A DNA stretch of 36,812 nt from Acidimicrobiales bacterium (GTDB taxonomy: Bacteria > Actinomycetota > Acidimicrobiia > Acidimicrobiales > CADCSY01). A program made the position numbers and the translations under genes. Numbering within the stretch: the first letter of the stretch is position 1; every line of letters starts with the position of its first letter. Below the pieces are notes generated by a model. The model was not told the origin of the DNA, did no database searches, and saw only the letters and a list, made by a program, of their open reading frames with translations. Positions 26,423 through 36,653 of this stretch are shown in pieces. The stretch is taken from NCBI GenBank assembly GCA_035512495.1, contig DATKDW010000094.1:1-36812 (forward strand). Direction: 5' to 3'.

Positions 26423-27160
26423 TCAGCGGGCGAAGAGGGCGCCGAGGCCGGACTGGCCGCCCCGGGCCGCGCCGGCGAGACCCAACGCCTCCCACATGGT
26501 GACCTGGTTGGCGGTGAGCACGGGCTTGGCCACGGCCGACTCGAGCTCGCTGATCCAGGCCACGGTGTGCAGGGCGGTGTCGGGCACGAGGACCACGTCG
26601 GCGTCCGGGTGGTCGTGGGCGACGACGAACGACCGGATGCGATCGAGCCCGAAGGTGCCCACCTCGGTCGCCGTGAGGATGTCCTCGGCGCCGGAGGCGA
26701 GCACCTCGACGCCAGCCTCGGCGAGGAACGACACGAACGCGTCGACCACGTCGACCGGGTAGGTGGCCGCGATGGCCGGCCGGCGCAGGCCCAGGTGGGC
26801 CATGGCCTCGACGAAGGCGAGCGAGGTGCTCGACGCAGGGACACCGAGGGTGTCGGCCACGGCGGCGACCTGGCGGCGTGCGCCGTCGAGGCCGAAGACG
26901 AAGCTGCCGCTGGTGCAGGCCCACATCACCGCGTCGGCTCGCCCGGCGAGACGGCGGGCGCCCGCCGCCAGGCGCTCGGGGCCGCCGAGGTCGAGTAGGG
27001 CGTCGATGCGGTGGGCGTCCTCTCCCACCGACGTGTGCACCACCTCCACCAGCGGGCGGGCGGCGGCGAGCGAGGCGAGCAGGGGGTAGTCGTCCTCGGC
27101 TGCGTGGCCGGGGTAGAGGAAGCCGAGCCGCGGGCCCGCTGCGGTGGTGTTCTCGGGCAC
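26423..27160 (-). CDS. Asp-Glu racemase superfamily protein, one-cysteine paralogue
   Basis: A 245-residue protein related to its convergent neighbour: RLGFLYPGHAAEDDYPLL, VMWACTSGSFVFGLDGARRQ with Cys82, and VLTANQVTMWEALGLAG. The second active-site Cys is missing; the matching segment reads VVLVPDTALHT, with Asp194 at the Cys position. A one-base proton mechanism of racemases is then impossible in its usual form; a decarboxylase, lyase or isomerase with different chemistry is possible. It has its own promoter (TAGGTT, 6 nt before the GTG) without the operator, so it is not clearly part of the regulon. Confidence 0.83.
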   Translation of the reverse strand: MPENTTAAGPRLGFLYPGHAAEDDYPLLASLAAARPLVEVVHTSVGEDAHRIDALLDLGGPERLAAGARRLAGRADAVMWACTSGSFVFGLDGARRQVAAVADTLGVPASSTSLAFVEAMAHLGLRRPAIAATYPVDVVDAFVSFLAEAGVEVLASGAEDILTATEVGTFGLDRIRSFVVAHDHPDADVVLVPDTALHTVAWISELESAVAKPVLTANQVTMWEALGLAGAARGGQSGLGALFAR

Positions 27161-33418: not shown

Positions 33419-34006
33419 ATGATGTCCGATATGACAGAAAGACAGGCTGAGCAGCCGCCACTGGAGTTCCGACCCCTCGTCGAGACGGACCTCGTGATTG
33501 TGAGCGACTGGCTTTCAGCCGAACACGTTCGCCGGTGGTGGCGAGACCCGGCCGACATCGGCGCCGTTCGAGCGAAGTACGTTCCGAGGATCGCGGGCGA
33601 GGAGCCGACGGAGGTGTTCATGGTCGCGCTAGGGGATGAGCCCATCGGGCTCATCCAGCGCTATCGCTTCAGCGACTACGGGAAGTGGGCAGCGACCGTC
33701 GCCGGCACCGACTTGGTGTTCCCGTCGGCAGCGGGGATCGACTACCTGATCGGCGTCGACGAGCACACCGGTCGAGGTCTTGGTACCGAGATGATCAGGT
33801 CGTTCACCGACCGGCTTTTCGAGGAGTACGCGGACGTCCGTACGATCCTGGTGACACCTCAGCATGGGAACCGCGCGTCGTGTAGGGCGCTCGAGCGCGC
33901 TGGCTACTCCCTGGCATGGGTCGGCGATCTCGACTCCGACGACCCCGCGGACGCTGGCGAGTCTGCGATCTACGTCAAACACCGCTCGGACGGGGTGCCT
34001 GCCTGA
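33419..34006 (+). CDS. GNAT acetyltransferase similar to aminoglycoside 6'-N-acetyltransferases
   Basis: A 195-residue GNAT protein. The order FRPLVETDLVIVSDWLSAEHVRRWW, VFMVALGDEPIGLIQRYRF, GIDYLIGVDEHTGRGLGTEMIRSF (acetyl-CoA motif A, RGLGT), VTPQHGNRASCRALERAGYSL and AIYVKH parallels AAC(6')-Ib, including the tryptophans after the first helix and the GID before motif A. This group includes siderophore acetylases (IucB-like), so drug acetylation is only a possibility. Three ATGs (33419, 33422, 33434) lie near the start and no ribosome site decides among them. Confidence 0.8.
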   Translation: MMSDMTERQAEQPPLEFRPLVETDLVIVSDWLSAEHVRRWWRDPADIGAVRAKYVPRIAGEEPTEVFMVALGDEPIGLIQRYRFSDYGKWAATVAGTDLVFPSAAGIDYLIGVDEHTGRGLGTEMIRSFTDRLFEEYADVRTILVTPQHGNRASCRALERAGYSLAWVGDLDSDDPADAGESAIYVKHRSDGVPA

Positions 34007-34094: not shown

Positions 34095-34412
34095 TCAGCC
34101 GAGCCCGAGGACGGTCGCCAGTGCCTCGTCCACACCCCACAGTTCCTCAGGGCTGAGGTGACCGCAGAGATCGCCGAGCCGTGACGCGTCGACGGCTCCG
34201 AGCTGTTCCACCAGTACCCGGGTGGCTTGGCCCTCGAGGTCGATCTCTGGTCGGAACGATGCGGGTCGAGCACTCGTAGAAGTTGGGGCAACGAGCACGA
34301 CCGACCGAGGAAGGAACTCATTTGCCTGCACGACGACGCCGAAGCGCTGACCATGTTGTTCATGCCCGGTTCCCTTGGGCAGCTTGAAGTGGTAGACGTC
34401 ACCTCGGAGCAC
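34095..34412 (-). CDS. mazF: MazF/PemK-family mRNA interferase toxin
   Basis: A 105-residue toxin: MLRGDVYHFKLPKGTGHEQHGQRFGVVVQANEFLPRSVVLVAPTSTSARPASFRPEIDLEGQATRVLVEQL contains the GDVY start, the RFGVVVQ strand and the conserved VAPTSTS...VLVEQLGAVD core of MazF. MazF cuts single-stranded RNA at short motifs; the motif cannot be told. The GTG at 34412 lies inside the antitoxin gene (14-nt overlap). No disruption is seen, so this appears the one intact toxin-antitoxin pair with a full-length toxin in the window. Confidence 0.9.
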   Translation of the reverse strand: MLRGDVYHFKLPKGTGHEQHGQRFGVVVQANEFLPRSVVLVAPTSTSARPASFRPEIDLEGQATRVLVEQLGAVDASRLGDLCGHLSPEELWGVDEALATVLGLG

Positions 34413-34927: not shown

Positions 34928-35599
34928 TCACCCGAGGCGCCAGAAGGCACCGGTGAGTCCCAACGCGTCCAGAATTGACTGGTTCGCCTCCCGCGTTCGC
35001 GGGACCCACGCTGGCGACAGCCGATCACCCCACCACCAGTGAGCGAGTTCGCTCAGCTTCGACACCGAGATCGTCGCACCCGGCTCTCTGGGGCCGAGCC
35101 ACCGGAGGATGTGCTCTTCCGACCGGAAGAGGTTCATCGTGCTTCAGGTGAAGCCGATGTCGTTCCACCAGTCGACCGCAGGGACGAGGCAGTGGAACAG
35201 CAGGGACGGATCCGACGGCTGCTGATCTCGCACCTCGACTCGGATCGCTTCCCCGCAGTCGGGGCAGGAGCTCTCGATGTCGCCGTCGGATTGGAGCGCA
35301 GCGCACACGCCGAACGCGTCCCATGCACAGTTCGCGAACCACCAGCGCTCACCGGCGAGGACGCGGTACGCCGTTGGCACCGCCGAGAACGGGTTCGCCA
35401 TGCGGATGTCGCCACCCGCGTGCAGGACCAAAGCGTGAGCCTCGTGGAGCCGGCGCCATCCTGATTCCACCTCGGCACGGGTGGACTGCTCGATGTCGGC
35501 CACCTCGTCGGAGCGAGGCGCCCGGCCGAGCTCTACGAACAGAGCGTACGTAGTGTTGCGCAGGCGGATGTCGGCATCGTCGATGCCGCAGCATGCCAC
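34928..35599 (-). CDS. merB: MerB-like organomercurial lyase with in-frame TGA at the catalytic cysteine (candidate selenoprotein)
   Basis: Read through one TGA, the frame encodes 223 residues, close to classical MerB (212). The N-terminal winged helix (IRLRNTTYALFVELGRAPRS) is followed by RMANPFSAVPTAYRV and the core WFANCAWDAFG, where Cys91 and Asp94 match MerB Cys96 and Asp99. Cys112/Cys115 follow in SSCPDCGE. TGA is codon 152, in GFT-TGA-STMNLFRSEEH; aligned without gaps on the FxS that follows, it matches MerB Cys159. The sequence after the TGA is clearly still the same protein (LSELAHWWWGDRLSPAW, LGLTGAFWRLG). MerB breaks the C-Hg bond of organomercurials. A GTG at 35599 is the only start in frame. 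Alternatives are a nonsense mutation or a sequencing error. No merA or merR is visible. Confidence 0.8.
35114..35131 (-). promoter_or_regulatory. SECIS-like hairpin downstream of the TGA
   Basis: On the coding (minus) strand, CTCTTCC-GGTC-GGAAGAG forms a perfect 7-bp stem with a four-base loop. It begins 12 nt after the TGA, and the loop begins 19 nt after it. Bacterial SECIS elements place a short stem with a G-containing loop (GGU in E. coli fdhF) about 16-37 nt after the UGA for SelB binding. The stem also encodes the conserved LFRSEE residues, so part of the pairing could be fortuitous. Confidence 0.6.
35144..35146 (-). other. In-frame TGA, possible selenocysteine codon 152
   Basis: The codon context is ACC-TGA-AGC. 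A single third-base difference from TGC (Cys). It sits at the position of catalytic Cys159 of MerB, the classical setting of Sec/Cys pairs. Confidence 0.65.
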
Positions 35600-35994: not shown

Positions 35995-36392
35995 TCAGGC
36001 CAGGGGGATGTCGCGGAGACCGCCCTCGGTCACCGCCTGCATCCACGGACCGTCTGGCGCGGCGTCGACGAGCTCCTCGATGCGGTGCCAATGCCGGCGG
36101 AGGATGGCGCGACTGTCGGCGGTGCTCTGGCTCTTCCTGCCGGTAAGGACGAAACCACGGACGCCGTGTCGACCCAGGCGTTCTTCTCGACAGGGCGGTA
36201 CCGGATGCGCTGATCCCGGGTGATCACCACAAGCCGGCGGTGCCCGATGATCGGCAGCCAGTGGTCGTCGAACGACCCGCGCGGCACCTCGGGGAGGTCC
36301 GGATGTCCCGGATGGACGACGTCGCCGCGCTCCTGCGCGAGGAGCTTGCCGAGGGCCAGGTCGTTCTCGTCAACGAAGAACCTGGGCGCCAA
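35995..36392 (-). pseudogene. PIN-like (VapC45-type) toxin with a one-base frameshift
   Basis: From the TTG at 36392 the frame reads RFFVDENDLALGKLLAQERGDVVHPGH, SFDDHWLPIIGHRRLVVITRDQRIRYRPVEKNAWVD. This is a PIN-like nuclease fold with acidic residues in FVDEN and ITRDQ. At about 36163-36168 the frame breaks, and the remaining protein continues in another frame as GVRGFVLTGRKSQSTADSRAILRRHW through DAAPDGPWMQAVTEGGLRDIPLA to a TGA at 35995-35997. One missing base explains it. The whole would be about 132 residues. The start lies 7 nt after the stop of a DUF433-type antitoxin remnant, the VapBC45-like order. Confidence 0.78.
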
Positions 36393-36398
36393 CGTCGA

Positions 36399-36653
36399 CT
36401 ACGCCGCCAACGACCGGAGCTGCTCCTCGTATGCCACGGCTGCGCTCACGACGTCGTTGGGCAGGTCATAGGCGTCCGAGATCTCATCGAGCGTCTCGCT
36501 CGCATCGAACAGCTCCCACAGGCGTTCCGTTGCCACACCTTCGACCGATGGGCGCCCGAAGCGCACGAGCGGGTCGATCACGACAGGCGAGGCGACCCCG
36601 GCTGGACGGATCCGACGTACTCGCCTGGGGACCGCCGCCGCCCTCGCCGCCAC
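36399..36653 (-). pseudogene. 5'-truncated DUF433-type antitoxin (VapB45-like)
   Basis: The C-terminal part VRRIRPAGVASPVVIDPLVRFGRPSVEGVATERLWELFDASETLDEISDAYDLPNDVVSAAVAYEEQLRSL is a DUF433 helix-turn-helix-like domain with the typical VVIDPxxxFGxP start. Full antitoxins of this kind carry a further ~150 N-terminal residues; here the recognisable protein begins at about 36620, and the sequence beyond belongs to an unrelated plus-strand frame. The start at 36653 is only the first available codon. With the toxin frameshifted, the module looks dead. Confidence 0.65.

Follow-up and report, generated by a model that had tools for sequence, protein, structure and literature searches.

Reviews of selenoproteins record one MerB-like member, SaoL, with the motif CU, where U is selenocysteine (Sec) (PMC13188914; PMC9312934). 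SaoL is listed in PMC13188914 as the MerB-like organometallic lyase of model NF040728, after Haft and Gwadz 2023. An "Alkylmercury lyase MerB-like protein" also takes up one line in the selenoprotein lists, with a single example accession (PMC9312934, PMC13188914), and this entry was merged with SaoL in 2026 (PMC13188914). Sec encoded by UAG, rather than UGA, is already known in Geodermatophilaceae from formate dehydrogenase, a UGSC protein and AhpC (PMC5330540, citing an earlier report). MerB-family selenoproteins are therefore on record, and the branch of the family described below is itself unnamed, large and widely spread.

The window analysed here is a stretch of 36,812 nucleotides from an Acidimicrobiales bacterium (assembly GCA_035512495.1, contig DATKDW010000094.1). 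It contains a MerB-like gene whose frame of 224 codons, stop included, lies on the minus strand, a strand that the sequence-only reading of this DNA had not given. The single in-frame TGA that this reading had placed at codon 152 was located, as was the terminal TGA, and the 7-bp stem with a GGTC loop that it had described 12 nt past the first TGA was read in the sequence. It had also equated Cys91, Asp94 and codon 152 with MerB Cys96, Asp99 and Cys159, and the three fell in the same columns when aligned to solved MerB structures. The features of the gene are as follows.

34928..35599, minus strand: Sec-MerB coding sequence, with GTG start at 35599, putative Sec-UGA at codon 152 and terminal UGA at 34930-34928; match to PF03243 at 1.7e-24.
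35327..35329, minus strand: Cys91 codon (TGT), counterpart of MerB Cys96; UGA stands here in the putative double-Sec relatives.
35318..35320, minus strand: Asp94 codon, counterpart by alignment of MerB Asp99, the proposed proton donor.
35144..35146, minus strand: UGA codon 152, putatively read as Sec, counterpart of the catalytic Cys159 of MerB by homologue columns and solved-structure alignment.
35114..35131, minus strand: SECIS-like hairpin, with one arm at 35131-35125 (CTCTTCC), the loop at 35124-35121 (GGTC) and the other arm at 35120-35114 (GGAAGAG).

GTG 35599 is the best guess for the start codon; no strong ribosome-binding site was seen before it, and the start and end of the gene are comparable with those of its homologues.

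The window protein shares a near full-length fold and the catalytic positions with MerB (PF03243; PDB 3f0o, 3f2f and 5c17, the last being MerB2). It scored 86.6 bits against the Pfam MerB model (cut-off 27), and its predicted structure (pLDDT 95.8) was closest to mercury-bound MerB2, with Z 17.7 over 191 residues, and matched MerB with Z 14.7, at about 16-25% identity to the solved MerBs. It differs from MerB in the predicted Sec in place of Cys159, in the absence of a mer operon, and in scores below the cut-offs of the canonical equivalogs (33.1 vs 193 and 28.8 vs 200 bits; NF009710, NF033555). No NCBIfam MerB or SaoL cut-off was reached by the window protein, by the seven Sec relatives that were scanned or by the one Cys homologue nearest to canonical MerB, and Sec-MerB genes are therefore at risk of being annotated as split or "truncated". 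The listed "Alkylmercury lyase MerB-like protein" belongs to the same Pfam family and is likewise predicted to contain Sec. SaoL is also both MerB-like and a predicted selenoprotein (PMC13188914), and its model was the best NCBIfam match of the window protein. That the window protein is SaoL itself is nevertheless very unlikely, as the match reached 57.4 bits against a cut-off of 140, a cut-off passed by none of the 386 sampled genomes of the phylum, and as recurring operon-like neighbours were lacking. Compared by model score and listed motif, SaoL has CU, whereas the window protein has FTU, with Thr preceding U.

The components of Sec insertion that the sequence-only reading had proposed to look for were all present in the source genome (2.8 Mb, 96% complete), namely a tRNA-Sec with anticodon TCA, adjacent selA and selB, and selD (L047), which has an in-frame UGA of its own (motif GAGUAGK). 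The UGA of selD stands at its catalytic site, and the strong hairpin after it has a loop unlike that of the MerB gene. A UGA form of formate dehydrogenase, sought as a second classical selenoprotein, was not found in the source genome. Among genomes at least 90% complete, in lists compiled by hand, selA was detected in 31 of 32 genomes with Sec-MerB vs 15 of 27 with Cys-only MerB (Fisher p 1.4e-4). The sole Sec-MerB genome without a selA match (G196) has a tRNA-Sec above the cut-off with anticodon TCA.

Taken alone, the hairpin of the window gene carries only modest weight, since it encodes the peptide LFRSEE, which back-translates to a near palindrome. When synonymous codons were resampled with weights from gene and family usage, a 7-bp Watson-Crick stem had p 0.026 and the stem with the GGTC loop p 0.008; the single-sequence fold z-score was only -0.86, and an Rfam scan gave no SECIS family match at this hairpin. 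Across 129 distinct Sec sites, the conservation of the hairpin appeared far beyond chance. The mean stem was 6.44 bp vs 1.87 +/- 0.24 under the null, and the GGTC loop stood at the fixed distance in 126 of the 129 sites vs 34.5 expected and a maximum of 50 in 500 draws; this codon null ignores shared ancestry, so its exact significance is not to be leaned on, and the sites span several phyla. A palindrome arising by chance from the coding of LFRSEE, plausible for the window gene, was rejected for the family by the same null. Changes in the stem were compensated even when the amino acids change, as in LFRSEE, AFRSEG and FLRSEE, the compensated codon pairs being CTC..GAG, GCC..GGC and TTC CTC..GAG GAG, and TGG TCA for CGG TCG.

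A MerB-family match was found in 95 of 395 genomes of the class, 46 of which have UGA at exactly the codon of the window gene together with the hairpin. In the class sequences that were fetched and aligned, the Cys159 column held UGA in 54 (window gene included), Cys in 36 and Tyr in one. A collection of homologues with hairpin covariation had been proposed from the sequence alone, and it revealed both the wide occurrence of UGA in this column and the compensated stems. An automatic best-stem count placed the GGTC loop and stem in one register in 49 of the 54 Sec forms vs none of the 36 Cys forms; close Cys relatives with the same hairpin but no selenoprotein genes had been named beforehand as evidence that would speak against Sec. 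The Cys forms L036, L041 and L107 contain UGAs elsewhere in their read-through translations, which are probably ordinary stops. L073 has UGA in the Cys159 column without the hairpin; it was placed among Cys forms on the tree, lies beside a MerR-like gene, and comes from a genome with tRNA-Sec. At L049, two Sec-MerB genes that differ in subtype lie on opposite strands, separated by about 1 kb.

A quick tree, made with a quick method after removal of the motif columns, required six changes between Sec and Cys. Two small groups of Cys forms (L126/L134 and L020/L021/L023) fall inside the Sec forms with moderate support (82 to 91), and both are without the hairpin. Such a loss would be expected if reversion from Sec to Cys frees the RNA from constraint.

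Named genomes were searched with peptide patterns that do not cover the Sec site. All 80 named loci so obtained, the nearest relatives in public genomes, carried a stop codon at this site, UGA in 75 and UAG in five, and their hosts belong to Actinomycetota, Chloroflexota, Acidobacteriota, Gemmatimonadota, Marinimicrobia and Eremiobacterota and include a deltaproteobacterium. In Nocardioides sp. zg-1230, what seems to be the same 12-kb region with Sec-MerB occurs on two scaffolds (L176, L190). These relatives bear on the possibility that UGA 152 is a true stop, marking a pseudogene, a sequencing error or a truncated protein of 151 residues. The window gene comes from a single draft contig, and a mechanical list of open reading frames ends the gene at this UGA, as a true stop would have it. 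This explanation is nonetheless exceedingly improbable, given that UGA occupies the identical codon in the 75 named loci and in 53 other homologues of the class, with coding conserved on both sides, and that truncation would strip the protein of one catalytic residue and one third of its fold. Sequencing error in particular is in effect excluded, because isolates are among the 75 named relatives that share this UGA.

The five loci with UAG (L146, L147, L153, L155 and L160), all from Geodermatophilaceae isolates of the genera Blastococcus, Geodermatophilus and Modestobacter, have the same hairpin after the codon. All five genomes possess a tRNA-Sec with anticodon CUA, which ARAGORN labelled tRNA-Pyl. 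Seven genomes with the UGA form were sampled, and a UCA tRNA-Sec was detected in six; in the draft assembly of the seventh (L144), none reached the cut-off. As the codon thus tracks the anticodon of tRNA-Sec, with UAG only where that anticodon is CUA, these loci are strong evidence for Sec over a stop or any other residue. The bacterial family and the CUA tRNA-Sec are the same as in the UAG-Sec system of PMC5330540; MerB is not among the UAG-Sec genes named there.

Recoding of the UGA to another residue without selenium, for example Trp, or Cys via a near-cognate tRNA, would be chemically compatible with the sequence alone. It is highly improbable all the same, since the gene also uses UGA as its terminal stop, and since the switch to UAG with the tRNA-Sec anticodon, the hairpin in the position of a SECIS element and the co-occurrence with selA all point to Sec, as does the Cys that ordinary MerB has at this position. 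Taken together, the Sec machinery, the UGAs of the homologues, the hairpin beyond chance and the match of UAG with CUA back the original proposal that the UGA is read as Sec, and we put the probability that UGA 152 is decoded as Sec at the position of MerB Cys159 at roughly 0.93 to 0.95.

Some relatives appear, from their codons, to have Sec at both active-site positions. UGA was present in both the Cys96 and the Cys159 columns of ten homologues (L074, L078-L082, L085-L087 and L089), all of them from draft or public assemblies, and their Asp99 column held Glu in seven and Asp in three. The seven Glu forms all have a 6-bp hairpin at a fixed distance past the first UGA vs a null mean of 1.9, a level that no draw among 5,000 reached under a null that is somewhat generous, the register having been picked after viewing the folds. 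The six Cys96 sisters of these forms have 0 to 4 bp, and in the three forms that retain Asp the hairpin lies in a different register. When one family was searched for further double-Sec members, only those already seen came up. The listed MerB-like entry differs from this branch in having one Sec per protein, with no UAG form mentioned (PMC9312934, PMC13188914). Neither the UAG nor the double-Sec version of this branch was found in the papers that were read; Haft and Gwadz 2023 or Haft and Tolstoy 2025, which lie outside that set, may mention the branch.

The surroundings of the window gene are unrelated to mercury, and no conserved neighbourhood recurs around Sec-MerB loci. The window also holds the following genes, among others.

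36030-36653, minus strand: PIN_10/DUF433 pair, flanking the MerB gene.
34095-34412, minus strand: PemK-like toxin gene, flanking the MerB gene.
33419-34006: GNAT acetyltransferase resembling the AAC(6') aminoglycoside type, well below AAC(6') cut-offs.
26423-27160, minus strand: arylmalonate decarboxylase / EutA-like protein.

The PIN_10/DUF433 pair and the PemK-like gene suggest toxin-antitoxin modules. A mobile or viral origin of the MerB gene was considered and set aside, as no relatives were confirmed in viral contigs or phages. The same applies to a plasmid origin: plasmid matches were all below 60% identity, and the one that was read through (H1, Paraburkholderia) has Cys.

Many Cys homologues adjoin merA or merR. 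When MerA, MerR, MerT and MerP were searched by tblastn, the 80 named Sec loci gave no match. Three Sec loci of the class set that have the hairpin did match, L072 and L075 to MerA at 34% and L081 to MerR. Because mer genes are lacking near the named loci, the substrate of the Sec forms may not be an organomercurial. A selenoprotein acting on another organometal or organometalloid, or with a redox or metal-binding role, is a serious contender, if somewhat short of even odds. The missing operon linkage, the scores under the MerB equivalog cut-offs, the low identity to solved MerBs and the naming of the known selenoprotein SaoL for organometals in general (PMC13188914) are in its favour, whereas the counterparts of Cys96, Asp99 and Cys159 are all kept, the last as predicted Sec, and the fold matches mercury-bound MerB2 over its full length. 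From homology and fold, MerB-type organometal chemistry is somewhat favoured for the window protein, and the chances that an organomercurial is its natural substrate are about even.

The window gene very probably encodes a selenoprotein that stands alone and belongs to the MerB (alkylmercury lyase) superfamily, with the active site Cys91/Asp94/Sec152. SelB and tRNA-Sec would decode UGA 152 as Sec under the direction of the hairpin that closely follows it. With MerB-type chemistry, the thiolate and selenolate would bind the metal of their substrate, an organometal and most plausibly an organomercurial, Asp94 would protonate the leaving carbon, and the metal would be held on sulfur and selenium until passed on. 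Sec may be a better ligand for mercury in this site, as the sequence-only reading proposed.

The loci described here likely make up an unnamed, widespread branch of MerB that is essentially Sec-dependent and mer-independent, with Sec encoded mostly by UGA and in Geodermatophilaceae by UAG, and sometimes with an organometal-cleaving site of two selenium atoms, a hairpin for each, and often Glu for Asp99. The affinity between mercury and selenium is mostly treated as a source of toxicity. In this branch, which spans several phyla, selenium apparently serves a lyase-type enzyme as a ligand for the metal in its active site. One fold occurs naturally in Cys, Sec and double-Sec versions, with one codon as both UGA and UAG, and the benefit of selenium over sulfur in organometal chemistry is therefore directly testable.
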